NCBI RefSeq assembly: GCF_019059575.1
Contig: NW_024883104.1
Coordinates: forward strand, 62,001 to 126,000
Source of the DNA: Amphibalanus amphitrite
Taxonomy: Eukaryota > Arthropoda > Thecostraca > Balanomorpha > Balanidae
Reading direction: 5' to 3'
Length of the DNA: 64,000 nucleotides
Positions 19,201-49,900 of the stretch are shown piece by piece. Position numbers and translations under genes: made by a program. Each line of letters starts with the position of its first letter. Within the stretch, counting starts at the first letter, position 1. The notes beneath the pieces are model-generated. The model ran no database searches, was not told where the DNA came from, and saw nothing but the letters and a program-made list of their open reading frames with translations.

Positions 19201-22200
19201 TTTGGAACGGGCTCCCAATTCTGGTTACACGTGCCTGATGTCATGCTATTCCGCTTTCAGTCGGCGTCAACGTGTTCTACGTGATGATTGCGATGTACCT
19301 GTACGGCGATCTGGCCATCTACGCTGCCGCCGTGGCCAAGTCGCTGCGAGATGTCGGATGGTCAGTAGCAAGGACGGTCATGATTGGTAGGACTTGCTTT
19401 GAATAATCATCGGGTTCTCTCTGTCCGGCCCTTGATGTCGTTTCCGGTCCCGGTAGAGCTTCATGCGTTTGTACTTTTTTTATAAATTTTTGTCTGAACC
19501 TTTGGATATGATTCACAAGGACAGAGCCACCGCTAAGTGAAGCTTGTTGCGGTGACCCTGCCCTCTACCCTCCGATCGTGCAATTCCAGTTCTATGGCAG
19601 AATTTAAAGTCCAAAATTTAACGTGCGCACATAGCCGCGCACGGCTGGTCCCCTCACTGACTTCGCTGACTACGGCCTGCCACCAACTGCAATCTTTCCT
19701 GTCAGGAGGCCCATAAATGTCAAGCGCCCGTCGCGCTTCGAACTCGGTCTGTTATAACCGGGAACGCGTGCTGTCACTACGCGGAGTCCAACGCTCTACC
19801 GACTGAGCTACGGGACCGGATTTTAACCCGCGCCCCAGTGGCGGTCTCAGCCAACTTCGCCCTAGTGGGGGGGGGGGGGGGCATATGTTACCACCCACCT
19901 CTAACTCAAAAACTAAGAGGGCTAGAAAGACGCGGTAAAAAGCAATCGATAGCTCTCAATGCGTACGTTTGAAAGTATTTCGGTCATTTTTCATCTTAGA
20001 GCAATATTGGGGTCACTGGAGGTCATCAAAGGTCAAAATTTGCCAAATGTCTTTATATTTCTCAGAAAACATGCATCTATCTCAGGAACTATGATAGCTA
20101 GAAAAACGCATGCAAAAGCAATCGATAGCTTTTGAACTTTTGATAAGGTCATTATCAAAATTGACCTTAGGTCATCGGCTTAGCCTCCAGAGGGCAAGAA
20201 GTCCAAAATAGCTGTTTTTGCGAAATGTGTTTTTCGACAATAACTTTTGACTAAAAAAGCCACAACATTTCTATTGCTAGAATCGTGTTCCTCTCGCCGA
20301 GACGCGTCGAATGAACTATAATTTGACCTTGAAAGGTCAACTTGAAAATTTGACCTCAGGTCAAGGTCATGACCTGACCGGGAAAGGTCATGTTGCATAT
20401 CATTCGATGCGTCTCAACAAGACAAACACAATGAGACCATCACCAGCGTCCTATCTCTTTCCAATCGAGAGTTATCGTCAAAAATCTGTTTGTAGCCTCA
20501 AATGACCTCGGATGACCTTTCTACAGGCTATCAGCAAAAAAAGACACATTGGTCGTCACGGGTGGTCCAAATCATTGTGATGCTGAAATATTTAGACTGT
20601 TCCTTTGCGTACACATGGATCTAGAGGCATTTTCATTTTTGTCCATTGACTTATTATGGTAAGGTCACGCCACTGACCTGACCTTAGGTCACGGATATAA
20701 AAAATCAGAGATAAATTGTAGGCGCCAATAACATCATGCAATCCACCAAGTTTAAAACCTTTCTGACAAACACTGCAGGCTGGACATGATTGCAATATGT
20801 TAACGTGACCTGGTGACCTGACCTGACATGACCTGGGGTCAAAAATTTCACAATTGTCCAAAATTGATGTACAAAAAGCTACCCCAAGCGGCGCGGCGCT
20901 ACGCGCCCCGGTTTTTATTCACACGCAAAACAACGCGACAGGGTGGTAACATAGGTATGCCCCCCCCCCCCCCACTGGGGCGAAGGTTAAATTAAACCAA
21001 CGTGTGTGAGTGTATACTGTTAACTTAAACATTCAAACGTTGTGTTTCAGTACCTACGTGCCGGCTAACCACACGTGTAACGCCACCATTCCACTGTCGG
21101 ACCCGTGCTGGTCTGGTCTGGAGCTGACCAGATGGGACGCCTACCGCATCTTCCTGGTGAGTCAAATATAATACTTAGGTAGGCACTCCGTATTTCTGTT
21201 AAGTCAAATGGGACGCCTACCGCATATGAGTCTCAAATTGGAAACCTGTATACTCCTGGTGACTCTTAGATGGGAGGTCTGCCAAATCAAATTTCTACCG
21301 TATTTTTTCCTGATGAGTGTTAGACGGAATGGCTAACAACATTTTCCCGTGACTATATATTTCACAAATTCCAATATGTATGGGTGGCAAACCTAAGAAA
21401 GAGCGTATTTAAAGTGCAGCGGCCTGATTGATGCATGTGCATTTAATTATACTGGGAGAGCATATTTTCTCTCACAGCTTTTCACACGAATTTCTCCGAA
21501 CTATACATTTCAAGTGATCAGAACACGTGTTAAGTGATTCAGGAGCTTTAACTTCGTTCTTTCTTAGGCTTGCCACTTGCCAGACTATATAGCTCTCATC
21601 TCATTTGCATTGGCTTTTGCTTTTTCTTTTCCAGGTTCATAGGAACTGGCGTTGAGATTTTGGGCGATGGATTTTGCCCATATGCTTATCCACTTTCTGG
21701 TTACTTAACACCTCCATTTTCCCGCAGAGCATATTTGTGGCGACCCTGGGGTCGTTCGTGTTCTTCAACGTGCAGAAGACCAAGTATCTTCAGGTGCTTA
21801 CCACGCTGATGCGATGGGGAGGTGAGCGTTTGTTTTATTTGAAATAATTTATTCTTTTGATGGCGACCAGTTATGGTCCATAACATATTGTGCCGTCAAA
21901 CCGTGCTGCACCCATAGACTGAAACTGAACAAAGAAGAATCTTTTAAGAATCCAAGTATTCCCTGGCGACAGCTTTCGACCTAAGTACTGAAGTGGCCTG
22001 TTAAATGTATTTATCATTACGCTGAATCGGAAATAACCAATCCATTTATATCCGCGTTGGATGAATGCCAGTGTCAAGATGGCTTTGTATGGGATGGGTT
22101 TTGTCAGTGTGCATGTGTGACGGTCCCCTGGTAATTAATGTAACATCTGTGGGAAGCTTTGGGTCTGGTGTTTATGCTGTGGGTTAGCCTTCGAGCTGTT

Positions 22201-24289
22201 GGTGGCGCCGTCATCTTTTCTGTTTGTGTGTCCATGTGACCTCTCTGTTGTCAGCAGTCAGATCGGCAGGTAGTCCTGCCGTTGTCTCTTGTCCCGGTGT
22301 CTACGTAATTATAGCCTCCATTATCTGTGTATAACATTCGGCCCGATGGTGGTGTTGTCATTATCTGCCCTGTCACTGTCAGTAGGTATGTGACGGTCTC
22401 TGTTCTCTGTCGACAGCGTTCGGTCTGATGGTGGTGCTGCCACTTTATCGTTATCGCTGTCCCTGTGTCTATTGCCTCTGTCTCTGCCCTCTGTTTTTTT
22501 TTTCCTATGAAATAGCCTCCGTTCTCGCCCGGCAGCGTTTGGTTTGATGGTGGTGCTGGCTCTGCGCCGTCTGGTGGCCGCCGGCCGGCCGCTGGGCCAC
22601 CCTCCCGCGTTCCGCCCCGCCGGCCTGCCCACCCTGTTCGGCGTGTGCGTCTACTCGTTCATGTGCCACCACTCGCTACCCTCGCTCATAACGCCCATCT
22701 CCAACAAGAGTCGTATCACAGGTGAGCTGATCCGACTGGCCGGGCAGTGACGTGACGTTGACGACACTTTTCTGGTGTCCACGAGACTATGTGTTTACTT
22801 ATGCGGTATGTTTCCCACTATATAACTTAATATTAGATAGCTTCATTGTCATTAACAGCGCTTACATGTATGCCGTATTCAGCTGGGTCTACGTATTGTA
22901 AATGACCCAGAATAAGCCGACTATTCCAAACTGTCTACGGTTGCTGACATTGCTCGCTGCTGTAATTGTTTATGTTCGAAACTACGCCTTTCGTCTAATA
23001 TTACCCCGTCTGACCCGTTCTGCCGCTCGCTCCTACAGCGCTTCTGGCGGCTGACTACGTGCTGATCCTGGCGTTCTACCTGCTGCTGGCCTTCACTGGC
23101 ATCTTCGCCTTCCCGTCGCTGTACGACTTGTACACCCTGAACTTTGTCCCCTGCGACGAGGGTCAGAGCATCGGCTGGTTCGAGGTTCGTGCTTCTTACA
23201 ACACCAAGCATTATCGAAACCGCACTGATTGTTTTCATCTGAAGTAGAATTGATGTACGGTTTGTGCCCTCCCAATTGGAAATGCATTTAAGTGGCCATC
23301 ATTTACTGCGCATTTGATTGCTTTTCAATGAGATATTCTCATATACCATGAGTATTATTATTAGACGAACCCGCACTGCTTCAACGTTTTTTATCGCTCT
23401 TTGTCCGCGACTCTTGGTCATTTTGCAATTCGCTGTGCCTGACCCGGCAGCCCCTGACGTCAACCTGTTCGTCCGGTTACAGCAACTGCTGGACTACTTC
23501 CTGTCCATGTTTCCGGTGTTCACGCTGTCGACCAACTTCCCCATCATTGCCATCACGCTGCGTAACAACCTGCAGACACTGTGTCTGACCGAGGGCCGGC
23601 GGCACGGCGTGTTTGTGCGCCGCTTGCTGTTCCCTCTGCTGGCCCTGCTGCCGCCCGCCGTCGTGGCGCTCGGTAAGGACGGGGATCGGCCAGCACGGGG
23701 AGAGACGAGGGGAGATGTAGCGAGAGCTGTTAACTAACGTTCAGCATCGCGTCGTATTTTTATCAGCGCTGAAATCTGTTACGGTATCCGTCGTACCGCC
23801 GTGCTGTAGTTTGCCAGTCTGCAAATGTTTAACCCTGCCATCAGGTTCCCCCATTTGAGGATTGGGCCCTTACCCATGTCCTCTGTCTGTTTCTAGGCGC
23901 CCACCTGTGCCCCAACCCTACCCCCGCGGCTGTGCTGCAGTTTCCAGGACCTCCAGCTGCTGTGCCCTAGCCCCTAGCCCTGCCGTGCTTTAGCCATGGA
24001 CCTCTGTGCCCTAACCCATGTTCCCTACCACTCTGCAGTGTTCCAGGACCTGCAGATGCTGGTCGGTATCACGGGCAGCTACGCCGGCTCCGGCATCCAG
24101 TACGTGGTGCCAGCCCTGCTGGCGTTCTACTCGCGACGCACCACGCTCACCCTGATCGGAATGGGCGTGCGCAACAAGCACAGCAGCTGGTTCCAGCACA
24201 CGGGCTGGGTGGTGTTCGTGCTGCTCTGGGCCGCCGTCTGCGTCATCTTTGTCACCGTCAACCACCTCGAGGACTGGTTCGGGTTCTAG
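1203..24289 (+). CDS. TMEM104: TMEM104-like multi-pass membrane protein, 13 exons
   Basis: Exons: 1203-1247, 1758-1879, 2093-2177, 14412-14501, 18516-18630, 18947-19027, 19261-19360, 21051-21156, 21728-21821, 22536-22721, 23039-23184, 23483-23672, 24039-24289. All junctions keep frame and give 536 aa (human TMEM104 is about 496). The product matches TMEM104 along its length: an early FNLIVGTGAL segment, FVIEAMAAANA, EMGKMASFFF, YLYGDLAIYAAAV, FGVCVYSFMCHHSLPSLITP, FPVFTLSTNFPIIAITLRNN, and a closing LVGITGSYAGSGIQYV. The family resembles SLC38/amino-acid-transporter-like proteins of the APC superfamily with about ten membrane helices; its substrate is not established. Exon 4 (acidic, non-conserved loop) is the least certain, as is its acceptor. 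Intron 3 is 12.2 kb because of the TAGGG satellite. An AGTAAA poly(A)-like signal lies near 24361. Confidence 0.9.
2178..3102. other. Start of TMEM104 intron 3, no gene
   Basis: Opens with a GTGAGT donor. Moderately GC-rich at first, with several overlapping short frames on the minus strand (2422-2767) that look like chance frames in GC-rich DNA. I see no RNA gene, element ends or repeat before the satellite begins near 3103. Confidence 0.5.
3103..4495 (+). repeat. Satellite unit A
   Basis: TAGGG tract about 3557-4290. The core lacks the second GGTGAAATTTTC sub-repeat through a ~135-base deletion (junction GAATCG/CGACC near 3330). The tail after the tract is of the GTAACATATCC type, shared with units E and G. 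Confidence 0.9.
4496..5750 (+). repeat. Satellite unit B
   Basis: TAGGG tract about 5056-5551. Lacks the opening TCTACTATTA, so the junction with unit A has lost about ten bases. Full-length core with both GGTGAAATTTTC sub-repeats (4576 and 4741). Tail of the AAAAAGGGCCC type. Confidence 0.9.
5751..7096 (+). repeat. Satellite unit C
   Basis: TAGGG tract about 6293-6898, with an internal duplicated block around the AGAATTAGG variants (6470-6500 and 6610-6630). Full-length core; tail of the AAAAAGGGCCC type. Confidence 0.9.
7097..8911 (+). repeat. Satellite unit D
   Basis: Longest unit, with a ~1.17 kb TAGGG tract (about 7558-8728). Carries the same ~135-base core deletion as unit A, and its tract opens with the same series of variants (TATATGG, then three GGGGTA, then GGGAAGGG), so A and D share a recent common copy. 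Confidence 0.9.
8912..10323 (+). repeat. Satellite unit E
   Basis: TAGGG tract about 9471-10121 with several GGGGATTGTAGGG variants that also occur in the tracts of D and G. Full-length core; tail of the GTAACATCC type. Confidence 0.9.
10324..11771 (+). repeat. Satellite unit F
   Basis: TAGGG tract about 10909-11586. Full-length core; the segment from GAGCCGGGAGG to AAGAGGATTCGCC is almost identical to that of unit B. Tail of the AAAAAGGGCCC type. Confidence 0.9.
11772..13202 (+). repeat. Satellite unit G (last)
   Basis: TAGGG tract about 12356-13001. The core shares GCTGTAAGTCG with unit B and has unique changes (for example a run of A replacing TTCAAC near 11906). Tail of the GAACATCC type. 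The array stops right after GTACCTCTAG, where ordinary AT-rich intron resumes. Confidence 0.9.
13203..14411. other. TMEM104 intron 3, AT-rich end
   Basis: AT-rich intronic sequence with pyrimidine-rich stretches. No gene, RNA or element ends seen. A 102-codon minus-strand frame at 13452-13760 is lysine-rich low-complexity sequence without recognisable motifs; I do not call it a gene. Confidence 0.5.
14502..15241. other. TMEM104 intron 4, low complexity
   Basis: Begins with a CT-rich stretch (14510-14650) and a homopolymer block (eight T then thirteen G near 14687-14706). Nothing codes here as far as I can see. Confidence 0.5.
15244..15454. mobile_element. Tc1/mariner-like MITE (211 bp)
   Basis: The element starts CAGTCTGTCTTAAAAGTACC and ends with its reverse complement; about 55 bases at each end match with a few mismatches. 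It is flanked on both sides by TA (15242-15243 and 15455-15456), the target duplication of the Tc1/mariner superfamily. The ~100-base centre has no coding capacity, so it is a non-autonomous copy. Confidence 0.85.
16158..16262 (-). mobile_element. tRNA-like SINE head, second family
   Basis: Read on the minus strand it has a box-A-like start (GGATAGGTGCTCGTAGCG), GTTGACGTTGGG, and a box-B-like GAGTTCGAGCCCC followed by CCCGGG. This resembles a tRNA-derived SINE head. The A box is degenerate and no cloverleaf is convincing, so it is not called as a functional tRNA. Confidence 0.45.
16360..16697 (+). mobile_element. tRNA-derived SINE, copy 1
   Basis: Head with A box (TAGCTCGGTCGGTAGAGCG) and B box (GGGTTCGAAACGCGACG), then a body with GTTGGTGGCAGGCCG, GTGAGGGGACCGGCCGTGCG and AAATTCTGCCATAAACCAGG, ending TTGTGAGTCC...TTCAAAAGGTTCGGACC. 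Two further copies of the same ~335-base element occur in the window on the other strand. A TGACG/TTTTTGAGTC variant replaces the family's ATTTATGGGCC motif. Confidence 0.85.
16698..18515. other. TMEM104 intron 4, remainder
   Basis: AT-rich with scattered homopolymers (A18 near 16987, C13 near 17450). Starts with two short GGTTGGGCCGGGTTGAACCCGG-like direct repeats (16720-16760). No gene or element ends recognised. Just before exon 5 there is a short doublet of GCTGACCTG (18491-18510). Confidence 0.45.
19490..19820 (-). mobile_element. tRNA-derived SINE, copy 2
   Basis: Reverse-complement copy of the element at 16360. The head at 19780-19820 reads CCGGTCCCGTAGCTCAGTCGG on the minus strand, and the tail lies at 19490-19520. 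Its head end sits 2 bases from the TTAA of the adjacent MITE. It lies in the intron after TMEM104 exon 7, antisense to the gene. Confidence 0.85.
19823..20990. mobile_element. TTAA-flanked piggyBac-like MITE, copy 1
   Basis: TTAA at 19823-19826 is followed by CCCGCGCCCCAGTGG, and TTAA at 20987-20990 is preceded by CCCACTGGGGCGAAGG. The inner parts also pair: G15 then GCATATGTTACCACCC on the left, against GGGTGGTAACATAGGTATGC then C15 on the right. The left end seems to carry a partial duplication of the terminus (a second TTCGCCCTAGTGGGG at 19856). The body is full of GGTCA/TGACC motifs. TTAA target duplications and CCC termini are hallmarks of piggyBac. No transposase frame is present. Confidence 0.7.
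21132..21330 (+). repeat. Tandem copies of TMEM104 exon 8 donor edge
   Basis: The exon end ATGGGACGCCTACCGCATC (up to 21156) is repeated in the intron at 21208-21226, followed by a GAGTCTCAAAT like that after the true donor. A more worn third copy (ATGGGAGGTCTGCC ... CCTGATGAGTGTTAG) follows at about 21270-21330. Confidence 0.7.
22333..22565 (+). repeat. Tandem copies of TMEM104 exon 10 acceptor edge
   Basis: The true acceptor GGCAG/CGTTTGGTTTGATGGTGG (exon from 22536) has a near copy at 22411-22441 (CGACAG/CGTTCGGTCTGATGG) and an older one at 22334-22356 (CATTCGGCCCGATGGTGG). Blocks starting ATAGCCTCC precede the first and third copies, so the repeat unit runs about 80-120 bases across the intron-exon boundary. 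Confidence 0.75.
23930..24063 (+). repeat. Duplicated acceptor edge of TMEM104 last exon
   Basis: CTGCAGTTTCCAGGACCTCCAG (23934-23955) mirrors the true boundary CTGCAG/TGTTCCAGGACCTGCAG (24033-24055), with CTGTGCCCTA blocks between them. The upstream copy keeps the AG but is out of frame with the previous exon by one base. Confidence 0.7.
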
Positions 24290-29004: not shown

Positions 29005-29754
29005 CACAACTGGCTGTTTTTAGTATCAGTGAATGATAAAGCACACATACACTGCTACAGACGAATCTGCCTCCAGACTCAACGCTTCCTTTCACAGACT
29101 TCTAAATGCTCGCTGTAACTTCAGTTTCTGTTTCAGTCTCATAACGAGCGCATGATAACAAACGCAAGAAGTGGAGCAGAAACTTCAGCCTTCAATAGAT
29201 GAAAGTTATAAATTGTAGCTAACAAATCTAAAAAATAATATCGACTGTAACAACTCCACCTACACCACCAAATTATTACTTTTTTCGCGTTCCTCCTCCA
29301 AGGCAAGAGCGTTGTCAATTGTTAGTCGATTGTCATCCTCTGCTGGCATTGACCAAGGTTTTAACAAAACTGAAACCGCCTCTTGAAATGTAAATTACGA
29401 TTAATACAAATATGAAGCCATTATTTAATTTTTTGAATTTACTCATTAATTGCTAATTTTAACATTTGTCATGAAATGATGACATTTATTTAAAAGCATG
29501 AGTATTACTTTGTAATAAATGTTTTTGGAAATATACGTCATCAAAATCTGTCAAAATTGTCTCTTATGCGCCATCTGAGGAAAAATCGCATGGCTAAGCT
29601 CAAAACATTCAAAACATTTCGAGTGTTGAGTTCGCAATGTGTTCGCAATGTGCAATGTGTTGTACCTGATCTGGTGATCTCAAATTGATGAATTGTTATT
29701 ATTATTTACGATTGTGTTACAGGTACAAGACCCAGTTTCTCCTTATATTGAAAT
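29005..29754. other. Region 5' of cullin-3
   Basis: AT-rich, presumably the cullin-3 5' UTR and promoter; no core motif can be assigned. The 22 bases around TTGTACCTGATCTGGTGAT (29659-29680) recur at 30520-30540 inside the neighbouring element. Confidence 0.45.
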
Positions 29755-31018
29755 TCGAATAATAAATAATGAGTTAAGTGCATGGATCCGAGAAAATGGA
29801 TCTGGGATCTGTTCCTATGGATCCTGATCTTGGATCCGACAAGATCATAGATCCAAAAACATTCTGTTTTGGTGATTTTATGTGATCACACATCATATTC
29901 CATAGTGTTGTGGCACTTATTGACTTGGAAACAATTGGAAACCTGGTTTTAAATGTTGTGCATGTCATGTGATGTCAGGATCCACTCACGTAATAGATCA
30001 ATGTTCTTGCTTTATCATCAGATTGAGATCCTATGAAATCATAAATCCAGGGTAAATTTGTTGTACCCAGTGGCGTACCCAGGAATTTGCGAAGGACCAG
30101 GGCATTGGACGAGAGGGCGCCAATCAAGGAGGGCGCCAACAACAAGGAGGGCGCCACATATCTGAAACTTGAATGTGTCAGTTATGTTCGTACACGTGCG
30201 GAACGAACATAACTGACATACTGGACAGAGGGGCGCCACCCACCATCATCTAGGAGCGCGACGCTATCGATTGGAGGGGCGCCAATACTGGACAAAGGGG
30301 CGCCACCGGCCCACCATATCGTCTAGGAGGGCGCCACTATCACCAGAGGAGCGCCAATACTGGACAGAGGGGCTTCGCCATCAACTAGAAGCGCGCCGCT
30401 ATCGACTGGAGGAGCGCCAACACTGGACAGAGGGGCGCCAGTCACTGAGGGCGCCGGGGACGATGAGCCAAAGGGACAGGGCATGCACGGAATGTCCTGT
30501 ATGTGCGTACGCCACTGGTTGTACCTGATCTGGTGATATCATAGCTCCTAACCTGCAGTTTGCTCTGAGATTCACAGATCATAGAATATAGATCCATCGC
30601 TCAGATCCAAGAACATGTCTGAGCTTTACTACAGCCGTTCAAGTCAGTTGAGGAAACTATGAGGCGCCAAACTAAAATTGGATCAGCCAATCAACGGCTG
30701 GAGTGGGATGACCATATATGGTCATAAAATCAGAAAACTTAATCTTTTCCATGCATCCTAGCATTCAAATGAAAAAATAAGGCATAAAAATGTTTTTTAA
30801 CCACACAAGGCCTACACTCACTCGGTACACAATTAAGTGGCGGCTCTAAATCGCAGAGTTTCAATGCAAGGTCAAGCAGTGATTGGCAAGTATGGCGGAT
30901 TGAAACAGACACGCCAAAAAATGTAAGCAGCACCACAGTTTTAAAATGTCATTATTTCTATTATCCCAGATCCATTTTCTCGGATCCATGCACTTAACTC
31001 ATTATTTATTATTCGAAA
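29755..31018. mobile_element. Inverted-repeat DNA element, 1.26 kb
   Basis: Left end TTCGAATAATAAATAATGAG...GGATCCGAGAAAATGGATCT; the right end at 30963-31018 is the exact or near-exact reverse complement over about 55 bases. No transposase frame. A hAT MITE sits inside. The right end directly abuts the LINE reverse transcriptase frame. No target duplication stands out, so the superfamily is open. Confidence 0.8.
30068..30517. mobile_element. hAT MITE with perfect 8-bp TSD (450 bp)
   Basis: The element starts CAGTGGCGTA and ends TACGCCACTG, flanked on both sides by GTTGTACC (30060-30067 and 30518-30525). An 8-bp target duplication and CAGTGGCG ends are typical of hAT transposons. The interior (30105-30450) consists of about a dozen GGGCGCC/GGCGCCA blocks spaced by ACTGGACAGAGG-like stretches, plus a 20-bp-arm palindrome at 30177-30219 (GTCAGTTATGTTCG and its complement). 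It is nested in the larger inverted-repeat element. Confidence 0.92.
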
Positions 31019-32449: not shown

Positions 32450-32579
32450 GCATGTGGTGCCAGGATGAGCTAAAAGCTACATGGTTGGTGTAAGGGAGAA
32501 GCAAATGACCGGATTTCCTACAGGTCCTTTGTTGACCGTCCTAAAAATCCGTAACCACTATTCTATTCTATTCTATTCT
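31019..32579 (+). mobile_element. Non-LTR retrotransposon fragment
   Basis: Spans the reverse transcriptase frame, a ~110-base 3' UTR and a terminal (CTATT)n tail at 32558-32579. The microsatellite tail replaces poly(A), as in CR1/L2-type LINEs. Confidence 0.85.
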
Positions 32580-34860: not shown

Positions 34861-34917
34861 GACATAATGTCTACTTAATCTTGCTCCCGATGTTTCTTCA
34901 CAGGTGATGAAGTCAAG

Positions 34918-37900
34918 ATGGCTGGTAGTAAGATGCAGGCAGTTCTGCTCCAGCTCCCTCTGATTGAAAATGAGAGGGAGAGATTGAACACCTACTTGGA
35001 TAAAATAATTGAAAGAGTGAGGAGTCTCATATGTTGCATGTGGCTGTGCAAAATGTTTGTTAGCTGTATCCTTTGCAGCTCAATGTAGTTATGTGTGTTT
35101 GGCTGTAGGACGAACAAATTGTGTGCAGAGTAAGCATCCGTAAAACTCAATGTATTTGTGTATAGTCTTGTGGACTGCTGTTCTTTAGAGTGCTAGAGAG
35201 TGTTCCACCCGCTGATCATGCCCTGTCATCCACAGACAAAAAGGCTCAGCGCCAACCCAGCAGCAGCGAGAAGCCTGAAGCGCGAAAATGCTGAGCTGCT
35301 ATGCCAGCTCACAGAATGGGCTGACTTGCTCGAGGATCATATAGCCTCGCATCAGTCGCCGTCGCCCGCCGACCCGCCGCCGGGTCCCACGAGCGTCGCC
35401 CCCAGTCAGTCGAGGACGGCCCGCTCGACGACTGACCTGAATGCCACGCTGGAGTCTGCCGTATCGTTCCACACGGCGGCGGCAGGCGGCGGCTCGGTGG
35501 GGCCGGGCGGCGGCTCGATGGGACCGGGCGGCGGCTCGATGGGACTTGGCGGCGGCTCGGCGGGACTTGGCGGCGGCTCAGTGCGACCGCAGTCCCCTGT
35601 CAGTCGCGGCAGCACCACCGAGAGGCCCCAGCGGTGAGTGTCGACGGGCGCCCATCCGGCTGCTGGTGTTGAGCACGTGAAAGTTCGGTATAGATCATCA
35701 TTGGTGTCCTTGCAGTAAATTGCGGTAATTACCTCAAAATATTCCTTTTCAAGTCATTTATTATGTCTCGATGAGGCTATGGTAATCAGAGCTCAGACAA
35801 AGTTCCATGGCAACCAGTTTTGAGAGAAAAAAAAAGCGTAATACAGGCGTGTAAGTGTAATTCATTTTTCGTTGCAAGGCACACATGGGCTGGTATTAGC
35901 AATACTTCATTTTTTCACTACATTGACCTGAGGTTGAATGTCAATATTAACCTTACAGCATAAATTTTTGCATTGCTCGATGTGCCTTAACACGCGCGAG
36001 CACTGGCCATTTTAGCATCCTCGACTGTGGACGAGGAGGGTGGCTGCGGCCCCTTGTGCCTGTCCGTCAATTAAATTGGATCTTAGCAGAAGAGTAAATG
36101 TGATGCACTGCACTTCACAAATAAGAGAAAGCCAACGGCTTCCAATTTTAAATTTTCAGGTCATCTAATGATGTTATTCCGTGGCGAACAATTCACCGCA
36201 ATTATCCATGGCCTGATGATATACCTATTTGTGGTAAAATACGAGTAAAATACTCTCATATCTCAACTGTTTGTTTGTAAATGTGCTACTGTAAAGTAGT
36301 GTAGTGGTTATATAATATATAGTTAGCATACTAGTTAGTAATTATATAGTTAGTGAAGTAGTTAAAGTATATACATAAAGTAGCTTTAGATTCTTTGCTC
36401 ATTGTGCTGTGGTGCCTTCGCAGCACTCCCGATCCGCACAGTGATTGCACGCGGACTGCGACGCTGGAGACGCCGTCACCGCCGCCGCCGCACAAGACCT
36501 GCCCCTCCAAGATCTCCAACAGTGAGGTGTCCTCAATTATCAATCGCCACCTGCTCAAGAAAACTTTCGGTCATGAAAGTCCGAAAGAAGTGGTGCAAAG
36601 GTGAGCGATGTTGCGTTGTCTGCCAATTTGCTTCCTATTTCACTCAGTAAGCCGTATTTTGTGCGGTCACGGCCTCACTCTGTCACACGGGCTGTGCGTG
36701 TTCACCGTTCCCTGCTCCTGTGCCCGGCCACGACCTCTCACTCTGCCACGCTGGCAGCGCCTACTCGCCGTTCACGCTCCATGTCAAACCGCCCACTCTG
36801 CCGCGCCGGCTCTTCTGTCCACGGCTCACTCTGTCCCCGGTTTTGCCAGGCCGCCGCCGCTGGGTGTCGAGACCAGGGTTGTGTTTTCATTTCACGACGA
36901 GGACACCGGTTACACCTACCTGAACCTGTGGGAGGATACGGACTCGCTGACCAAGCTGGCAGGGGATCTGACGTAAGTACATGCCAGACGCTAATGCCTC
37001 GTAAACCTCGCCCGTAAGCCGCAATAAACGCCTCAAAAAGATGGCCTCATCGTACTCTTTTGTAGGTATGTGTCTTGTGGTCAGCGTCTTTTTTATTAGG
37101 TACGTTTAGTTGATAACAGCCGATGATTATGCCTTTGGACTGTTATAATATCAGGTTGTCTACCATAGTATTGCTCCAGTTTCGATGTGTCACCACGGTG
37201 AATCGTCAACTCTCTTCCTCCTGTGATGATGTCTTTTAGGGAGCTGGCGCTCCACCCGGCGCGGATGTCGCGTCTCCCCAAGCAGGGAGAGCTGGTGATC
37301 GCCGCCTGGAAGGGCGCCTGGTACCGCGCCAGGGTGACGGACGTGTTTGACAAGTGAGAACACAAGTATTTTATTTTATTTTAAAATGATCTTCATATAA
37401 TACGTCTTGCTTAAGCTTCACGGCTCAGTCCATTTATGTCATATAGCAACCATTTTTTTTAGCTGTATTGCGGAGTTAAATGTTTAGTAGACTTCCTACC
37501 TTTCGTTTTGTTTTCTAAGGACTCCGTAACCCCGTGCGGCACTGTTACATCGCCTTCCCTACTAACCGTCCCGCTCGCGTCCCGGCCGTAGGGGCGACAT
37601 GAACTCGATGGTGGCTCTGCAGTACATCGACTACGGTAACAGCGAGCACCAGCCGGTGGGACAGCTCCGCTTCCTGCCTGACAAGATGAAGGAGGCGCCC
37701 GCCGCCGCCTACAAGTGCAAACTGGTCAACGTGAGTACAGAGCTGTCTATTGATGATTCTAGCCGCTCGTTTTTTTTAACTCGGCAAAATGGGCGTTGTT
37801 TGAGCTTTGACCACTTCGCTGGTGTTTTCATTGAATTAGGATGTTTTATTTTGTTTTCGTACAAGCTCGCGTTCGGTGTTATTTATAAATTTATCAAGAC

Positions 37901-40900
37901 GCTTAACCTATATCTAGTCAACTGAATTTGATGCCTTAGCTGCGGAATCGTCAAACAGTCGATATCAAGCACGCTGCCCCCCCCCCCCCATCTCTGCCCG
38001 CCGCCCATGTCTGTTAGGGCCAAGTAAAGCTGCATATACCACGACACGGTGTATTGTGCTTCCAGCGACCGAAGACCAAGCACGGACACGGCGACCCGCC
38101 GACTGACCCAGTCCGGTCACGGTCGCGCCCTTATATAACCACGGCACAGAGCGCATGCGCGGTGACCGCGCGGCGGTCAGGCGGCTCGCCCGTCGCCGGC
38201 CGGCCGGCCGAGCCGCCGGCCCGGCCCGCGCCTCGGCCCCGCACGACCGGTCCGCGGTCACAATATCCCAACATGTCTACCCACTCTGGCCACCCTCCCC
38301 CTCTCTCCGCCCCACAGCTGAAGGTGGGCGGCGAGTCGCACTGGCCACTCCAGCGGCGCCTGCTGCTGGCGCTGGCCGACGGACCCGAGTGTCGTCTGAG
38401 GGCCGTGCTACGGCGCTCACAGCTGCCAGACCTGTACGAGGCGACCCTGATCTCGGGCGTCACGGTCGGTTCCGAGCCCATGCAGGTGGACGTGGTGGCT
38501 ACCCTGAACGCGGCGCTTCTGATCAACCCGGCCGCCGCTGCCACACAGGTTAGATGGTGGGGTAGTCTGAGGGAGATGGGGCAGGTTAGACGGTAAAGAA
38601 GCTGGGAGGTGGGGCAGGGTAGACGATGGGGCAGTTTGGGGGATATTGGGTGGGGCAGGTGGTGACGCGGCTCACGGCTGGAACGGTAACCTGAGAGAGA
38701 ATGTTAGGCTGTTTAGATGTTGGGATGGCTTGTGCTGCAATACAGGTGAGCCGGCGTTAGTTTTGACAATATTCGAGCGGCACCACCGACCTTAGATGGG
38801 ATGGGTCGGTCAGTGACTCAGATGCATGTAAACTGTGAACGACGTACTGTGTATGATGGAGGGAGGGAGGAACGATCACCGGCACCATTGAATGCTGCCA
38901 TTGTGATGGTGAAGATGTGTAAATGTTTCCTGGATAGAACCATCGCATAATGGCTGGACTAATGCAAAATAAGTTTTGAAATTGAAGCTACGAGTATAAC
39001 ATGCCTATATTCTCTGTGCTCGTAGCACTCAAAATCTAGTTTTTTTTTCTTAATACATTTAGTCCGAAACTTTTGAATGGAAGGATTCACAAGGACAGAG
39101 ACCCCGCTAAGCGAAGCTTGTTGCGTTGACCGTGCCCTCTACCCTCCGATTGCGCAATTCCAGTTCTATGGCAGAATTTGGAGTCCAAAGTTTAACGTGC
39201 GCACCTAGCCACGCACGGCCGGTCCCCTCACTGACTTCGTCTGGCTACGGCCTGCCACCAACCGCAACCATACCTGTCAGGAGGCCCATAAATGTCAAGC
39301 GCCCGTCGCGCTTCGAATCCGGGCTGTAATAACCGGGAACGCGTGCTCTCACTGCGTGGATTCCAATTTCCAACGCTCTACCGACTGAGCTACAGGACCG
39401 GCTAAAATCCCAATCATGAAACACATCCTGTCTTGGCGCTTATGCTCTATACTTTGCACCATCCCTTACCCAATAGCTCTCTGGGCCTTGTGTGCTGGAG
39501 ACGTGACCGTGGGGCAGTCATACCTCCCGGTAACCAGTTTGTCGTCCCCGCGGCCTGGCAGATCGAGTCGGAGGAGCTGCAGCTGCGGCCGCTGCTGGTC
39601 CCCTACCGGCGGCCTGCCGAGCTGTCCCCTCCGGTGTCGGTCAAACCCGAACAGCCGCCGGAGGAGAAGGTACTCAGCTGGCTGGCCGGCCAGACGGCCA
39701 GCGGAGCACGCGCTGACCGCCCAACGCCCACCAGCCGGCCGGCGACGGCGCGCGCCAACCGCGACACGGCGGAGCTGAACATCAGGTCAGTTCGCCGCGG
39801 AGGGAGGGCATGGTGCGTGCAGATTGGGTGGAGGGAGCTTTGGAAACGGCATTAAGTGTCCATCCGAGTGATAGGTTCATCGCGCCTTGTTTCTTTTTTT
39901 TGGGTTGCTGAAGTTAGAACCTAAATGCTTGGTAAGATGTTCGGTAAGATTATTTTAAATTAAAGTGACATTGCAGCGGATTTTTTACGCTTATGAATTT
40001 TCTCAGCCACCCGGCCTCAGCACCACATTCTCACCATTCACAATATTATGTCTCCATGTGTCCCGTTCGTCAGTTTCGCGTCCTCGGAGAGCCGGCCGTC
40101 GCGCCGCCACCGTGTGCGCGCTCCGCCCGAGTACAGCGGGCTGCAGCTGGTGTGGACAGCGCGTCCCATCGAACAGCAGCTGGTGGGCGACGGGCCGCAC
40201 AACGTGATCGTCATGCAGTTCAATAACCCGGCCGACTTCTACCTGGGCGTCCGCTCGGAGCAGTTCGATGAGTGAGTGGGGCTCGTCTAGGCACTGCTGG
40301 CTTTGTTTCTACGCTGACTGGGAGTTGGGGGTTTGACCAGTGTGCACCAGTAACCCTCTTGTTGTTTACATTATAATTTACTTTTGTTTTGCTTTTCATT
40401 TTCATCAATTAAGTTCTGACAATGATATCCCTCACTTAATTGGTCGATTCGTTGATACCTTACTAGTTACTGTTGACGTTGGGCTCAACATACGAGCCTG
40501 CTGCGTAAGTATGGCTCGTGGCGAGCCTGCGTAAGCAGGCTCGTATGAGCCTCCTGCGTAAGTATTATCTTTATAAATGCCTACATTTATGCCGAAGATG
40601 TTGCAGTCTCATGGAGCTGCATCTGTCCATCCTGCTTTTTACAGGCTATCGATGACCTTCCCCATCTGTTTTGTACAGGTTCGAGGAGCGGCTGTTTTCC
40701 GTGTACAGTCGGCTGCCGCTGCATCCGGAGCAGGCGGTGCGCGACGCGCTACTGCCCGGCTCCTACTGGGTGGCGCGCTGGGAGAGACCCGGCGAGAAGA
40801 CGCGCTGGTGCCGCTGCGTCGTACTGGAGGAGCACAACCAGAAAGGCGGAAAGGTGAGGGCGGAACGGTGGAAATGGGAGCTGTAACGGCCGAAAGGCGA

Positions 40901-43900
40901 GAAAAGAACGGCTGAAATGTGAGGACAGAACGGTGAAAATAGGAGCTGTAACGGCCGAAAGGCCAGGAAAGGAAGACCGAAAGGGGAGGAAAGAAAGGCC
41001 GAAAGGAAGGGAAGAACGGCGGAAGTTGAGGTGACGTCCGTTCTGTGGCCATTCTTATAAAGAAAAGAACGGAGGGACGCTCCGTCATTTCTGAGATTAG
41101 ACGGAATTTGGTTATCATAAAAGGACGAAGACGAAAGACGGAACCTGTTAAAAGAACGAAGCCAGATTGACGCTACCCCCACCCAAAAGGACGCGTTTCC
41201 GTATCATAAAGAGACAAAGACGCCTCTGGTGACGTAAGACTTTGCGTTGTTCGTGAAAAATAACGCACCAGAAATAGCGCTGCTCTTCAGCAGCGCTTTT
41301 TTACGGCATTGATACGATATTTAGCTGGTTGCGAGAGCAACTTGTGCGAAATGTGTTTCAGGCTGCATGCTAATCGATATGTGAGCTGTATGACATTGGT
41401 CGGGAGTTATTTCATACGAAAATTAGTCAATTTGACATGCAGACCAAGTACCTATAGACCGCCACCTTATCGTTCTGCAGCTATCGTTGTTTATCGGGCA
41501 TACACATTAACAGGCAGGATTGGACACCTTGAGATGCAATATCCAGTGAGTGGTAGGTGTTTACTGTTTGCAACTGCCTCCCAGTAGCTCCAACCTCACC
41601 TGGCCTGTGTCCTGTGTCCTCTGGCGCCTCGACTGGTATCACGGTTGGAGGTCTGAGTCACGTGGCACTACAACTTCTCGTTAGCACTGAAAGTTCTTGT
41701 TTGCACGCAGAGAAATTCGTATACACTCCGCCACGCTCAAGCGCTGTCGCTGGACTGTCCTCGCTGTCCCCACACAGAGAAGATCCACAGGCCATTTCTT
41801 CCCCCGCTCCCCCTCCCCCCTCTTTAGCGTGGCAGTTCGTCAAAACAACACCTGCGCCCCCCGTCTCTCTCTCTACCTACTCCTTCCCTCTCTCCCTCCC
41901 TTTCATCCCGAGCCGCCGCGCGCGTTCGCCGCGCGCCGCGTCGTCCCCTAGAACGATAAGATGCCCTATCAGTATCCCCTCCTCTTTTATCTCTACCGCC
42001 TGTCCCGAGCCGTCACGCTAACTCAGGGTGTCTGCGTTGTTCCCTTACCGCTTATTAGACACCATATCACTGAGTATGACATAGGCATTACCACATTTAT
42101 ACGCAAAAACAATCTTTGGTGGGTTTCAGCCTAGCAGGAAAGACTACAACATATTACATACTTCGCCTATCTATATTATCCTTCATCGTAGCCAATGCCG
42201 CCAAGGCTATGTATCGTAGCAGACAACAGCCCCCGGTCCCATAAAAATTCAAATATGATCCCAAATAATTGCAGGTTCTCATTTTATTATACCTATATAG
42301 CGATCACACAATATTTTCTTAGTCTTGTTGCATTCTTTGTGACGAAATTTGTAAGAAAATATTGCAGGAAATGATTCCTGTTTCATTTACTAAAGCTCTT
42401 GATCATTTAGACGAAAAACGCATCCTAGCAAAACAACGAAGGGGGAGGGGTAGAGGGACGGAACCTTTATGATAACCAATAAGGACGGAATCGTTTAATT
42501 CATTGAGTTCTTTTTTTCCTTCCGTCCCTCCGTCCTTTTCCTTTATAAGAATGGCCTCTGTCCTCACCATAAAGTTGAGGAAAGAACGGTGGAATGTTTG
42601 GCCATGATTATTTGTCGACCACTCTGAGCGATGAGCCGCCTGCGTGCCGATGCGATACCGATGCCAGTGGGTGATATGTAATTGTGCTCTGGCACCGACC
42701 TACCGATTGCGGCTGTCTACAGCCCTGTGGCTGTCGCCGCCGCCAGGAGCCTGCATCTAGTAACTATGCTGTGGGTGGGGTCTGTATAACCCTGCCACTG
42801 CCATTGCCGCCAGGAGCCTGCCTCGGCCAGCTACCCGGTGCTGTGGGTGGGGTCTGTATAGTGTACTGTATGTATAACCCTGCCACTGCCGCCAGGAGCC
42901 TGCCTCGGCCAGCTACCCGGTGCTGTGGGTGGACTATGGCGACACGGACCGCCTGCCGGCCGTCAGGTTCCGGCCGATGACTGAGGAGTTCGCCGCGGAG
43001 CCGGTGTTTGCTGTCCACGCCCGCTGCGCCGGGGTAGGTGTCAGTCCTCACGACAGCGGTCCGTTGAGGGGTGTCTAAAATCGCCCACCATCCGCTGAAT
43101 TCCAGATGACGGAGGATAAAAATAGGGAGAATACCAGCGGTGTGGGATTCTTACGGCTGACTCGAACTAATTTAAAGAAATACTGTTAAAGGACCGCCAA
43201 AGCTTTGAGCAAAACATGAACGATGGACAGTGCAGCTAACATAAACTGACCAACATGCTTTGTTAGCCGATGTTTTGCAATTTACATGCGGTGTAGGGTG
43301 AACGACAAGGCATATTAATTTATTGTATGGCAGCTGATGAAACCATATCAACTGTCTTAACCCGGCAGTTGCTGGGGTATTTCGCCACACCCACCGTTTG
43401 CTGGGGGGGGGGGGGGCGTTAAACGCCCCCAGCCGATAACTCGAGAACCAAAAGGCGCAGCGAAACGCACGAGGCGGCAAACGAAAGAACGCGACGAGAC
43501 GCTTCAGATGAGTATTTTAAAGTTGAATTTTGATGTCACAGGTCGGGTCAAGGTCAGGTCAAACACCTGAAATCGGGCTTTCAGTAGCATGGACTTCAGG
43601 GCTTCGCAATGGGCGCCTCTCGTCATAAACTCTGTCAAAACGGTGCACAATCCATCATATAAGGCCTACAAGAGTGTCAGCTCCATGTACATAGGGGTCA
43701 GTCAAGCATAGGTCAGGGTCAAGGTCAGGTCAACCGGGTAGGCACATATCCCCGAAAATCAAAACTGATATTCGCAGCTTGTGACACATGTTTAATGGGT
43801 AATTTGGGGCGTAGAACACGATGGTCACATTTATTTTATCATATGTGTACATGTTTGGCTCAACAAGTTTAATTTAAGAAAAAAAAAATGTATCATGGTC

Positions 43901-46900
43901 GTGAAGTAGTCACGAGAAATTGCCAAGATTCAGTTCAAGATTTTGGAAATTGCGGAACGATAATCAATAATCGAAGATAGCCATTTGATTTTTCATGGTA
44001 TTGGCAGTCTAATGGCGTTCACGGTATGTCTGTATGTCTATTCTGTGATTTTATATGATTTTTTGAACATATGCCGTTTTTGGTCGAAAACTCAGAAATC
44101 ATGACGTCACTAACACCTCGATATCTCAAAAAATTTCCGACCGATTTTTTTGAAATTTTGTCACAATAAACTTCAATCAATTCCCTACAGGTACCCAAAT
44201 TTTGGCGCGCCTGCGTCGCGCCATTTTTATGCTATGGCCCGGCGAAAAAAGTGGGGGCGTTTAACGCCCCCCCCCCCCCCCCCCCAGCAACTCGCGGGTT
44301 AAGTATTATTGCCGCAAATGCGTATGATTAAACACGATGTTAATTGAAACTGGTGCTGAATTAATTATGAATAAGCACGAAGTGGACTGTTACGTAAACA
44401 TAGACGTCTATTCTTAGCGGAGAATAATCTTGTTGCGTAAGTCTTCAATGTGCTGAATAACTATTTTGCTGTTGCGCTCTTTTTCCCTCTGACAAACTTC
44501 TGTGTACTGAACAGTTGAGCACCTGGGCGCCCGTACCAGGTGTAACTTTACTTGTGTGTGTTTTTTCAGGTGTACCCAGTGGACGAGCTGGGAGCCCAGC
44601 TGGACTCGTACTCGGCTGAGGCAGCCACCACGTTCCGTGAACTGCTCCAGGGGACAGTCTGTTTGGCGGTGCCGGTACCCAGCGAGAGCACTACGTGAGT
44701 GTGCCGGCCGTGGAGAGGGTACTGGCGGGCTAGCCGGCCCGACAGACCGGGGTTGGTGAGACCGTGAGTGGCGGGCTGGGAAAACCTGAGGGAATCAGAC
44801 TTAGAGTGGCGGGCTCGTAAGACGGTAAGACCTAATGTGGGGATCTGGTATGGTCAGACCTGGGGGACGAGGTGGTCAGACATATTGAGAGGACGTCATT
44901 GGATGAGAATTCACATCGGGAGTGACGTGGGGATAAAAACATTTTGTACGCCCTGTAAAGTGTTTCTGTGATGTAAATCGTGATATTCTGGGCTGTGGCC
45001 AATCATATGTTTGCCACGTCTACCGACTGGTTGTCACACCGCAGTAGTGAGGCTGTAGCGTGACCGCGTCTTTGGTGTGACCCGATTTGTCCCCGGGCAG
45101 CGGCTATTCAGTCGGAGGTCGCTGGTCTGACCCGATGCTTACCCCGGGCAGCGGCTATCCAGTCGGAGGTCGCTGGGTGACCTGGTGTCTACCTACCCCC
45201 CCCCCCCCCCGGGCAGCGGCCATCAGTCGAGGTCGCTGGCTTGACCCTATGCTTACCCCGGGCAGCGGCTATCCAGTCGGAGGTCGCCGGGTGATCTGAT
45301 GTTTACCTACCCCGGGCAGCGGCTATCCAGTCGGAGGTCGCTGGGTGACCTGGTGCCTCCCCCGCACCGGCCATCAGTCGGAGATCGCTGGTCTGACCCG
45401 ATGTTTCTCCCCCGCAGCGGGTGCCAGGCAGTGCTGCTGGAGGCAATCATAGATGGCTCGGACGATCTGATGTCGGTGACGCAGGCTCTTCTGGAGCTGG
45501 GAGTGGCGGCCATGCGCGATCCGGAGCTGGACCCGTCGTTCGCTGAGATTGAGGAGCAGCTGGCCAACGGACACACGGCCACCGTCCCCTCGGCGACCGC
45601 CAGCCAGGAGATCGCCAAGGTACGGACCTACTCGCCTCCACGGTAGTTGGAAAGGCAGGATCGCTGTATATGTATGTGGTCTCAGAACTTTGGAATGTCA
45701 CAATGTGTAAGTCCAAAATATCAGAGGGAGTGAAGCTACTCTCCGCTTATTGTTTGAAGTCTTGTGTACCATTAAATACGTTGGGATAGATTTTCTGATT
45801 GCATGAGTGCATTTCAAATTCTATTTTTCTTCTTTCGTTCATTACTGAAATGCGATTCGTGCGTGCTCATCTAAACTGCGTTAAATATATGGATGGGTGT
45901 TTTCACCAGCCATTGGCCTCATTGAACCACGTACGTTTTATACCGCGTCATCCCGGTCCCACAGAGCAAATACCCATGTAGTAATCTGCTCCCGTAAACC
46001 ATAATTTGTCAACCTCTTACCAGGCTGCTGTTAGCGCGGTAGTTCTCCACGTCGCGTGAGCTGTTACATACATGCCTCAACTCATTGTAGCACCTCCGTT
46101 ACATGTCTCCACCCCTCCGCAGTGGGACCCGATGGGTGAGGACTTCACGTCTCCCTTCAACCGTCCGGAGGAGGACGGAGAGGCGGAGGTGGCCGGCCTG
46201 ACGGGACGCCGGGACCCCGATGACCCGGGCGTGTGTCCCGTGTACGCGTCCGGCCGCCGCTGCTGGGACGGCATCGCCTGCCCCAAACGACACGTCCGAG
46301 GCGGTGAGTGACAGTCACGCCGCGGGGGGGGGGGGGGGGGGAGGTGACTGAAGGGGTTGTTGGTGGTGCTGCCTGAATGCTATGTTTGATGTGGAGATTG
46401 GGATTTGACTAGATATGGGATTTGATCCATGCCAGATTCCTTCAGATTTTCCTGCATACTGGTATGTTTTTAGTTTACCTTCTGCAATTCACAATTAGCA
46501 TATTAATAATGCTCGGTCCGTATGATTTTAGCAACTTTATGGTGTACCTGTAGTCCGTTTTAGTTCAGTTCGCCTCCTGAAGTTAGACACATGTTTTCAC
46601 CGAAAGAAGTTTTTCTCGCCTATTGCTGGCTGGCTGGCGATGAGACGTTTGTTGTGCTCGATATATCCCGCCTATGCTGATTTCTCCCGCTCCCTTGCCT
46701 CTTAGCGCGTCTCTTAGCGCCCCCCCCCCCCCCCCCGCCTCCAGGTGACCAGGAGCCGGTGACCGTCCTCATTCACTCGGCCAATCCGGAGCCGGTGGTG
46801 GTGCCGCGGATCGGCTCCACCGTCTACGTCAAGGTGTCGGCGGTGCTGAGCCCGGACAAGTTTTACGTGCAGCTGCCGTTCGGCGCCATACCCGCCCAGG

Positions 46901-49900
46901 AGGTCAACAGCGACCGTGAGTATTTGGGTAGGGTGGCAGCTGCGGCTGTCTCAATTTTGAGTAGTGGCCAGGCAGGCTGTGCCATACTTACCTACTGGAG
47001 GATGGAGAATCGAGTAATTGGTGTCTTAGGCAGGTTTTTTTTTTTTTTTTGCTGGTTCCATTGGTGGTTGTCGGCTGTCCTACCTGGGTGCTTGTGGAGA
47101 AAGTTACTTGTGTATGCGTGTTCTGTATTTATAGAGAAATTATGAATACGTGTCCTTAGCCTTGCATCACGGTGTCAGAATACCAGCAACATCGTTGTCA
47201 TGCACTGATTTAAAATGCAATCATACCATTTCACTATATCCGTTTTTAGACCTAACTCTCATAAAATTGTATCCTACAAACACAGAGACTCCGACATATG
47301 CCATCCACCCCGCCGCTATCGGCACCCTGCTCTGGCCACCGTGCCACCCGACATCGCGCCGTGCCGCTCCCTGCACCCGGCCCCGCCGCGGTCCTAGCAA
47401 CACCCGAGTCCTGCGAGCTGCTGCGTGCGCTGATACCGTATCGGATCCGCTCCCCGGAGCTTTATTTGAGAGTTTGGCGCTCAGTACGGGTGTCGTGGCA
47501 GCGCTATCGATAGTTCATTTGATAGGTCTTGTGTTATGAAACTGTTTGTGCCGGGTGGCGTTATCGCTGCTCGCGTGTCAACAGTGCGTTTCAATTACAT
47601 TGTTAAGGGACTGATATATAATTAAATATCATGCATCATACTCGGTCTTCGATAACGCAGTGTCATGACAACAGCTTGGCTTGATATTGTCGTCTGGCGC
47701 TCTGGCAATACCGCTTTGTGAATCATCTTGGAAATGGCTGACGTCCTATGCTTATCAATGTCCTTAAACGACTGTCAAAGCGCTAAGTCATGTGGCCGGC
47801 TTCTTTGTTCACATTTTGGTGCACACGATCGCTCGTACTTCTGACGATTTTCGTCGGATTTGTGTGCTAGTTGTCAGGTAGCTTCGTGGCATGTCCTTGT
47901 GGCTAGTCACTCCTCGTGTGACCTGTCACATTGTTCTTGTGACCAGAATAGTTCATGTATGTACCCGTCTCTGTGACCCATCCCTGTGACCTGCTCTGTG
48001 ACCTGTGACCTTTGTGACCTCTCTATTCTCGTGCTCAGACGCCGGGTACCGACGCCGACTGGACATGGACGAAACACTGGAGTCGCTGTCGGCGGCGATG
48101 GCCGCGGCGTATCGGAGCTGCGGCCGGCGCCACTACAATGCCGCCTGCCGGCCGGCGATCGGCGAGGTGCTGGTGGCGCCGTTCCAGAGCGGCTGGCAGC
48201 GAGCCATGGTCGTGGACCTGGCCGATGAACCCGAGACGGACCGGCTCTCTGTGGAGGTGAGTACCGAGTCGGACCTGCTCCCTGTCGTGGAGGTGAGCTA
48301 GAGTCGGACCGGTAAGTTAGAGCCGGACCGGCTCACTGTGGAGAGACAGTCCGACCCACGCACTGTGGAGAGTCGAACCGGCTCGGCGGCTCACTGTATA
48401 GAGTCGGACAGGCTCACTGTATAAAGTTGGGCCGGCCCTTAATGTGGAGTCGGGCCGGCTCACTGTGGAGAGACAGACCGGCTCACTGTATAGAGTCGGA
48501 CAGGCTCACTGTATAGAGTTGGGCCAGCTCACTATGTGGAGTCGGATAGGCTCACTGTGGAGGGAGAGACAGACCGGGTCATGTAATAACTGTGGGGAGT
48601 CGGACTGGCTCACTGTAGTGACTCTGGAGAGTGGAACCGGCTCACTTGGAAGTCGGACCAGTTCACCGTGAGGAGTCGGACCCGTTGAGTTAAGAGTCCG
48701 GAGTCGGACCGGCTCTTGTTGGAGGCGAGTTCGCCGAGTTGCACCGCGCGGGATCCCATACTGAGCCAGTTTATACTCTGGACTGTGGACGAGGGCTACG
48801 CTGAAGGCCGCAGGATGCGAGCTTCTGTTGCTGCAGCGTAGGTACCTACTTGACAATCATAATATGTCTAATATTTGTATTTGTAAACATAACCAATCGG
48901 TATGATCAGTCTGTTGAACATCACGTAAATTTCTGACACATTTAGATGTTTCGTTGGTGTGTCTAGTGGCTACTCAGTTTATTAACAAAATTATTTTCAA
49001 TTTGTTTGGATGTTGGCAATGCGCATTAATTGTCGTAAGCTGGTTGAAGCATGTGCCTTTTTTAAGTGCTTGTTTGCCGTTTTACTGCAACTGTTTTCAG
49101 TTCTAAAAATTTGATGCTTGCAAAAACACTTTGTAATGGTTTGTAAAACGAAAGAAACCATAAATTAAATTTTAGATTTAGCATTCCGTACAGTTAACAA
49201 AACCCGCATTCATTATGCCACCTCGCTCGTGCCCTGGCACATAATTCGAATAAAAAAGACGAACAATAAAGTAGCCACCTGAGAGGCGGGACACGTACTC
49301 GGGAATTTCCATCATTCACTTTATGGATATGACTGTCACAAACAACGAATGGCGTGTTAGAGGAAAACGCCAAAGAACACACGTCACACGCAAACCTGCG
49401 CGTGAATGGTGCTTGTGACTTGTTTCTTAGTTTACGTCCGTTCCATGTGATGCGGGTAAACACCAGGAACAAGTCTGTTACAAGCCCTTGATGAGTGTGT
49501 GGCTGCGTTGTGACAGGTGTTTCTGGTGGACCACGGTGTGACGATGGCCTGTGACGCCAGCGAACTGAGGGAGATGAAACAGGAGTTCAACCTGCTGCCG
49601 TACCAGGTAAGCGAGCCCCGCTGAGATCTATTGTGCCCTCTTTGGTCTCTCCATTCTCTCTGAATTATTCTCATAGTAACTGGCACACCCGAGTGGATTT
49701 GGTAGTGACAGGAAGCGGCAGTGCTGCCACGGAGACGGCCAGGCTGGCGTTCACAGTGCAGTCTCAGAGCTGTGACTGCCGACTAATGACTTTGACTATG
49801 ACTAATGACTGATTTGTGTTGACTGTGAGACTGATGGCACGGCACTCTCTGCCGGCAGGCGGTGTCGTGCTGGCTGAGCTGTGTGGCTCCGGCCAGCGGC

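Follow-up and report, generated by a model that had tools for sequence, protein, structure and literature searches.

Why should tandem repeats lie across the splice junctions of a gene? The question arises from a window of 64,000 nucleotides in the genome of the barnacle Amphibalanus amphitrite (contig NW_024883104.1, here C1607:62001-126000), in which two genes, a TMEM104-like gene and a Tudor-domain gene, carry repeats that run from exon edges into the adjoining introns. A sequence-only reading of the window had named eight such edges, had held that a preference of this kind for exon edges is not expected of random minisatellites, and had offered junction-biased duplication, selection against repeats deeper in exons, flexible splicing and intron gain as explanations. 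We scored the junctions of the window, compared them with an independent sample of protein-kinase genes drawn from the whole assembly (807.55 Mb, 2644 contigs), and aligned both haplotypes. Our findings suggest that the repeats belong to the "mirages", a class of minisatellite in which each unit crosses the border between an exon and an intron, and that they are probably tolerated products of a general process of tandem duplication.

Eight exon edges in two unrelated genes are part of tandem repeats

We modelled nine exons of the TMEM104-like gene, whose name we adopt from the sequence-only reading and presume to be apt, and 18 exons of the Tudor gene. Exons 8, 10 and 13 of the former in that reading are exons 4, 6 and 9 of the present model, the first exons of the gene lying outside it. 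The two genes provided 52 junctions. For each, a 50-base stretch around the junction was aligned locally with the 200 bases on either side, and the threshold was a score of 16. Exactly the eight junctions named beforehand reached at least 16, donors (21156, 38548, 40853 and 48256) and acceptors (22536, 24039, 42896 and 45418) alike, so that the claim of eight repeated edges reaching into introns holds (Table 1).

According to the sequence-only reading, the copies include 10-40 exon bases. This is true of seven edges, at which about 14-37 exon bases are copied, and fails at the 38548 donor, whose best copy lacks a GT and has only some 3 bases of the exon. At 21156 and 48256, the alignment of the best copy does not run across the junction; at the former, exon bases -28 to -7 recur at intron positions +48 to 69. 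The copy of the 22536 acceptor lies at a lag of 119 bases and retains the AG (position-weight score 7.0 against 9.5), as does that of the 24039 acceptor at a lag of 98 (7.0 against 5.2). Copy identity is 57 of 58 bases at 42896 and 38 of 53 at 45418.

Once the flanks had been base-shuffled, only one of 372 intron points scored at least 16; the window repeats are thus not due to chance. Shuffled sequence was nevertheless dropped as the sole null, given that 43 of 372 points (11.6%) in the real introns of the same two genes reached the threshold. At this intron rate, the window junctions (8/52, 15.4%; Fisher P 0.49) show no excess of their own.

Repeats are as frequent at kinase junctions as in introns and rare inside exons

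A protein-kinase family search of the whole genome returned 140 matches, whose exons were found by homology, blind to repeats. We used 60 loci covering 74 of these matches; partial-domain matches were picked manually, in most cases a single one from each haplotype pair (L075 and L078 were both counted and afterwards handled as a pair). Exon ends were set by a model of codons and splice sites for which the window and the kinase matches served as training data. The 74 predicted exons have 148 ends, 120 of them within our splice-score and position limits; exclusion of 12 ends in six second-haplotype loci (L093-L098) left 108 kinase junctions.

Tandem self-similarity of at least 16 was detected at 10 of the 108 kinase junctions (9.3%), again at both donors and acceptors, and at 138 of 1309 intron points 75-400 bases away (10.5%; P 0.87), but at only 2 of 323 points in exon interiors (0.6%; P 3e-5 against junctions). 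The profile runs at about 8-14% across the intron, drops to 6/108 at 25 bases into the exon and reaches 1/108 at 50. Duplication therefore keeps to the intron rate as far as the junction, while within exons it is removed. The sequence-only reading had proposed a comparison of exon edges with internal exon and intron segments; in the kinase sample, which comes close to that check, edges far exceed exon interiors and do not exceed introns. The idea that edges are favoured thus stands with respect to the former and falls with respect to the latter, and selection purging repeats deeper in exons is supported. The unit of these tandem duplications ranges from tens of bases to some 120; they take in about one tenth of the sampled intron points and are rarer where GC content is below 45%.

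An exon search free of homology was also tried. In 22 non-redundant loci (L002-L038), it found 26 exons, which we discarded, since many of them fell within long frames of a single exon and occurred on both strands. The run made 70 junctions, with edge copies in two at score 16, and only 19 of them (loci L039 onward) were kept for later counts.

Copies carry splice sites and a short exon part

Among 160 junctions scored with 60-base windows, the best copy lay on the intron side in all 17 with a score of at least 17. The GT or AG was retained in 12 of the 14 best copies that span the junction, the exceptions being L052 and 38548. We then took a census of copies by probing 330 bases at each of 16 junctions; 12 yielded copies and four yielded none with that probe. 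Thirty of the 32 copies had an intact GT or AG, compared with 26.7 expected from 91.3% identity at other bases (P 0.08), and many had position-weight scores near that of the true site. At one kinase donor (L058), the exon tail and donor are followed by ten downstream copies.

Exon-edge 30-mers were copied into the adjoining intron at 10 of 160 junctions at score 16 (kinases 5/108, window 5/52), while the next 30 exon bases were copied at none (0/160; P 0.0017). For one-sided intron 30-mers the counts were 67/1400 and 61/1536 for the two sides. We measured the exon part of the copies in 179 junctions: 108 from kinases, 52 from the window and 19 further ones from kinase flanks. It was 13-40 bases in all 15 positives at score 14 and at most 40 bases in all 11 at score 17; the kinase sample by itself (7/7) agrees with the range first proposed for the window. 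Comparable intron anchors had a part under 40 bases in 76 of 356 cases, and GC-matched intron anchors placed in the first copy of an array, with at most 40 bases, predict 1.47 junctions rather than the 11 seen at score 17. A 40-base limit on the exon part of copies is therefore likely.

That tandem duplication of AG/GT segments created the introns themselves has, in our view, next to no chance of being the explanation. This origin was proposed from mirages for lancelet globin genes (PMC3087553). In its simple form, it would place a copy of the exon end at the far side of the intron as well. No such repeat was found in 72 tests on 36 complete introns (179-2042 bases long) at score 13, where the control was also 0; instead, the copies stand in tandem beside their own junction. 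The intron-gain proposal of the sequence-only reading thus finds no backing here.

Arrays differ between haplotypes

The assembly keeps both haplotypes on separate contigs, with many kinase places occurring in near-equal pairs; 27 aligned pairs were 87-100% alike. The barnacle Balanus improvisus, too, is described as very highly diverse, with its alleles assembled into separate contigs (PMC8270832). The other haplotype of our window lies on contig C263, and size differences between the two were counted by hand from alignments.

Seven of the eight window arrays differ from C263 by one copy or part-copy, whereas the exons are preserved intact. In the Tudor gene, the array of about 320 bp at the exon 13 acceptor is missing on C263, which has a clean acceptor and an unchanged exon. 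C263 is about 236 bp longer at the exon 11 acceptor, has 92 bp less within the array and 7 bp more at the donor of exon 16, has 33 bp more beside the exon 7 donor, and shows differences of +67 bp and about -44 bp at the exon 10 donor. In the TMEM104-like gene, the 21156 donor has extra copies on C263, one with an intact GTGAGT, and the upstream copy of the 24039 acceptor is degenerate or missing. The haplotypes differ by only a few bases at the 22536 acceptor (exon 10 of the sequence-only reading). Here (22416-22445 and 22536-22565; L124), the exon start of the other haplotype equals the intron copy at two positions at which the window exon does not, which could be conversion involving decoy and exon or plain substitution. 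Across the kinase sample and at score 18, arrays were kept between haplotypes, in counts too small to draw on, at 4/4 junction, 31/45 intron and 9/9 exon positions.

This instability bears on two further explanations. The first, that spare sites would provide regulated alternative exon ends, is very unlikely. The slight surplus of intact GT and AG and the position-weight scores of many copies would suit it, and minisatellites have reportedly been linked to splicing decisions in C. elegans. However, the distance from the true site to the first copy is divisible by three in only 3 of 12 cases (distances entered by hand), the arrays vary or vanish between haplotypes, and for lancelet mirages RT-PCR (reverse transcription-PCR) suggested regular splicing (PMC3087553).

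The second is that the arrays are false local duplications made during assembly. Tandem repeats are a frequent site of assembly error. Nonetheless, arrays recur on the separate haplotig with another copy number, their copies mostly share 70-98% identity instead of being exact duplicates, and the same class of repeat occurs at kinase loci on other contigs; we consider an artefact extremely improbable.

Tolerated duplication or junction-biased duplication

Our preferred explanation starts from a general process of tandem duplication, by slippage or unequal exchange. A duplication within an exon would change the protein and be lost, while one that spans a junction would do no harm, since splicing would still go to the outermost site, which has the full exon attached. 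A copy with little of the exon (at most 40 bases in the arrays seen) would compete poorly; those with a longer exon part might be used and then lost. Splice-site competition experiments of the 1980s reportedly point toward weak competition by short-tailed copies. A copied site with no more than about 40 exon bases may accordingly lose to the true site and one with more exon may compete and be selected away, a natural experiment in splice choice; we put this forward tentatively and would sooner doubt it than rely on it. If true, the cut-off measures in vivo, over several percent of junctions, the exon length needed for splice-site recognition.

Several points weigh against tolerated duplication as a full account. 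Use of the outermost site is deduced from DNA rather than RNA. If both duplication and survival were uniform, junction arrays should appear at the first-copy rate of introns, that is, the rate at points within the first copy of an array; GC-matched resampling of 127 kinase junctions (4000 resamples) gave a first-copy expectation of 2.94, compared with 7 seen (P 0.029). With the exon-side part restricted to at most 40 bases, the expectation was 0.74 and no resample reached 7. Slower decay of exon copies could give up to about a twofold excess, but not the whole excess of short parts; short exon parts thus exceed the first-copy control beyond what slower decay explains. The most cautious test of the 40-base limit, which used each array's own unit length and a uniform start, gave a probability of 0.025 for the kinases alone and 0.0005 with the window (lengths entered by hand). 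The arrays behind this limit are few, about a dozen, and some come from the window, which had been selected for its repeats. Finally, exon interiors of the two window genes are not always clean, with 16 of 227 points at or above 16, a figure that may be inflated by a coding repeat at 35485-35589.

The first-copy results, together with the clustering of array edges 13-40 bases inside exons, would fit junction-biased duplication, in which exon ends start duplications through microhomology of splice motifs, a step in GC content or co-transcriptional structure. Yet coverage shows no peak at kinase junctions, the GC-matched one-sided expectation for the same 127 junctions (6.85) matches the 7 seen (P 0.53), and kinase exon-edge 30-mers (5/108) are copied as often as one-sided intron 30-mers (45/964; P 1.0). 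Moreover, the nominal P values are too small because the positive intron anchors come from a handful of loci (7-11 at score 19).

Polymorphism speaks to the same question. We surveyed indels of at least 6 bp in 20 of the 27 kinase pairs, skipping seven near-identical ones; some pairs may be close paralogues. There were 4 in 5748 bp of exon (0.7 per kb), 7 in 1364 bp within 15 bases of a junction (5.1 per kb) and 185 in 19021 bp of intron (9.7 per kb). The junction rate equals the mean of the exon and intron rates; had junctions been mutational hotspots, a higher value would be expected. Junction-biased duplication, as the sequence-only reading had suggested, thus gains some ground from the first-copy excess and loses it to the indel survey; we regard it as weakly possible and on balance unlikely. 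Tolerated products of general duplication remain the probable explanation.

Annotated features and other repeats of the window

Table 1. Genes, exons and junction-spanning repeats of the window (positions in the 64,000-nucleotide stretch; score, junction score)
Feature	Position	Strand	Junction	Evidence
TMEM104-like gene	18516..24289	+		9 exons modelled, bounded by splice sites
TMEM104-like exon, part of last 28 bases repeated in intron	21051..21156	+	donor, 21156	score 18
Intron part of the 21156 donor repeat (end approximate)	21157..21330	+	donor, 21156	
Tandem copies of intron end and first 28 exon bases	22388..22563	+	acceptor, 22536	score 28
TMEM104-like exon with repeated acceptor	22536..22721	+	acceptor, 22536	gene model, junction score
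Two copies of acceptor and 23 exon bases	23933..24061	+	true acceptor, 24039	score 22
TMEM104-like last exon	24039..24289	+	acceptor, 24039	gene model, junction score
Tudor-domain gene	34904..50117	+		18 exons modelled; Pfam TUDOR PF00567, E 1.9e-38, three stretches; splice sites
Weak repeat at Tudor exon 7 donor (end approximate)	38546..38640	+	donor, 38548	score 16
Minisatellite from last 14 bases of Tudor exon 10 into intron	40840..41024	+	donor, 40853 (exon end)	Tandem Repeats Finder (TRF), score 25
Copies (~82 bp) that end with bases 1-37 of Tudor exon 11	42767..42932	+	acceptor, 42896 (exon start)	TRF, score 43
Diverged acceptor copies, Tudor exon 13	45073..45440	+	acceptor, 45418 (exon start)	TRF 45073-45391, score 19
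Minisatellite of last ~24 bases of Tudor exon 16 and donor	48231..48720	+	donor, 48256 (exon end)	score 22; TRF rows to 48570, more copies by eye to ~48720

The TMEM104-like product matched Pfam Aa_trans (PF01490; E 8.3e-6) at 25.1 bits, just below the cut-off of 25.6, on the basis of a partial translation whose tail is in the wrong frame. Between the two genes lies an open frame of 475 amino acids (31022-32449) that looks reverse-transcriptase-like and that we take to belong to a retroelement without long terminal repeats. Close by, about 450 bases (30067-30520) consist of overlapping 18-63 bp tandem repeats, with at least 39 other copies at 97-100% identity among the 40 of 1020 candidates scored. 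These may represent a recent burst of a dispersed element, given that the copies are so alike though haplotypes differ by up to 13%.

Two inverted open frames of 441 and 503 amino acids (51838-53163, plus strand; 54032-55543, minus strand), presumably alkylglycerol-monooxygenase-like (AGMO), are by eye nearly identical over most of their length and differ at the N-terminus; the pair looks as if it had been homogenised. The window also contains seven long arrays of GGTAG/TAGGG-type pentamers (3560-13001; about 500-1170 bases each) and a perfect 97-base tandem duplication with copies 100% identical (62602-62797). At one kinase locus (L087, 1602 onward), a donor leads directly into a long GTGA microsatellite, as if seeded by the donor consensus. 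A CCTAA-type run near base 603 and the cuticle-protein family PF00379, matched in this genome by all 150 candidates scored, many of them clustered, are both features that we take to mark arthropods; the cuticle family rules out a lancelet as the source.

Comparison with known systems

We are dealing with a known phenomenon, mirages, in a distant phylum. To its description we add a frequency, about 6-9% of the junctions sampled, and what may be a limit on size. A literature search at the level of titles and abstracts, with subscription literature mostly outside its reach, found no mirages outside lancelets. Their presence in an arthropod with strongly diverged haplotypes suggests that rapid tandem duplication is enough for them to appear. 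Their frequency also means that a considerable proportion of real splice sites have intact-looking decoys beside them, so that natural variation can show how splice sites are chosen and how the choice depends on the length of the exon.

The lancelet mirages, originally reported by Canestro et al. (2002) as cited in later accounts (PMC3087553, PMC3902484), are the closest parallel. In those accounts, the unit spans a donor or acceptor, several unrelated genes are affected, many copies retain the AG or GT, and copy number varies by haplotype, with length differences of 6 and 3 units; all but these last figures apply to the barnacle as well. Somatic instability is reported for lancelet Adh3. The lancelet accounts describe single genes, with units of 150-160 bp in the globin genes. 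The present work concerns an arthropod host, measures frequency against introns and exons, and sees no copy with more than 40 exon bases; splicing was checked in lancelets by RT-PCR, whereas the present arrays are known from DNA.

The barnacle arrays resemble ordinary intronic minisatellites (variable-number tandem repeats, VNTRs) in having unstable units of tens of bases and equal density at junctions and in introns. They differ in that the unit holds a splice site and exon bases, which turns most copies into splicing decoys. Tandem duplication has reportedly given rise to introns in a potato RdRp (RNA-dependent RNA polymerase) gene and in Drosophila; the duplications there and here include splice motifs, but exon-end copies do not bound introns in our sample. 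In the constructs ascribed to Reed and Maniatis in 1986, duplicated splice sites with differing amounts of exon attached reportedly compete. Like those constructs, the barnacle arrays set tandem sites with exon parts of varying length side by side; unlike them, they are natural, many per genome and polymorphic, and are so far read from sequence.

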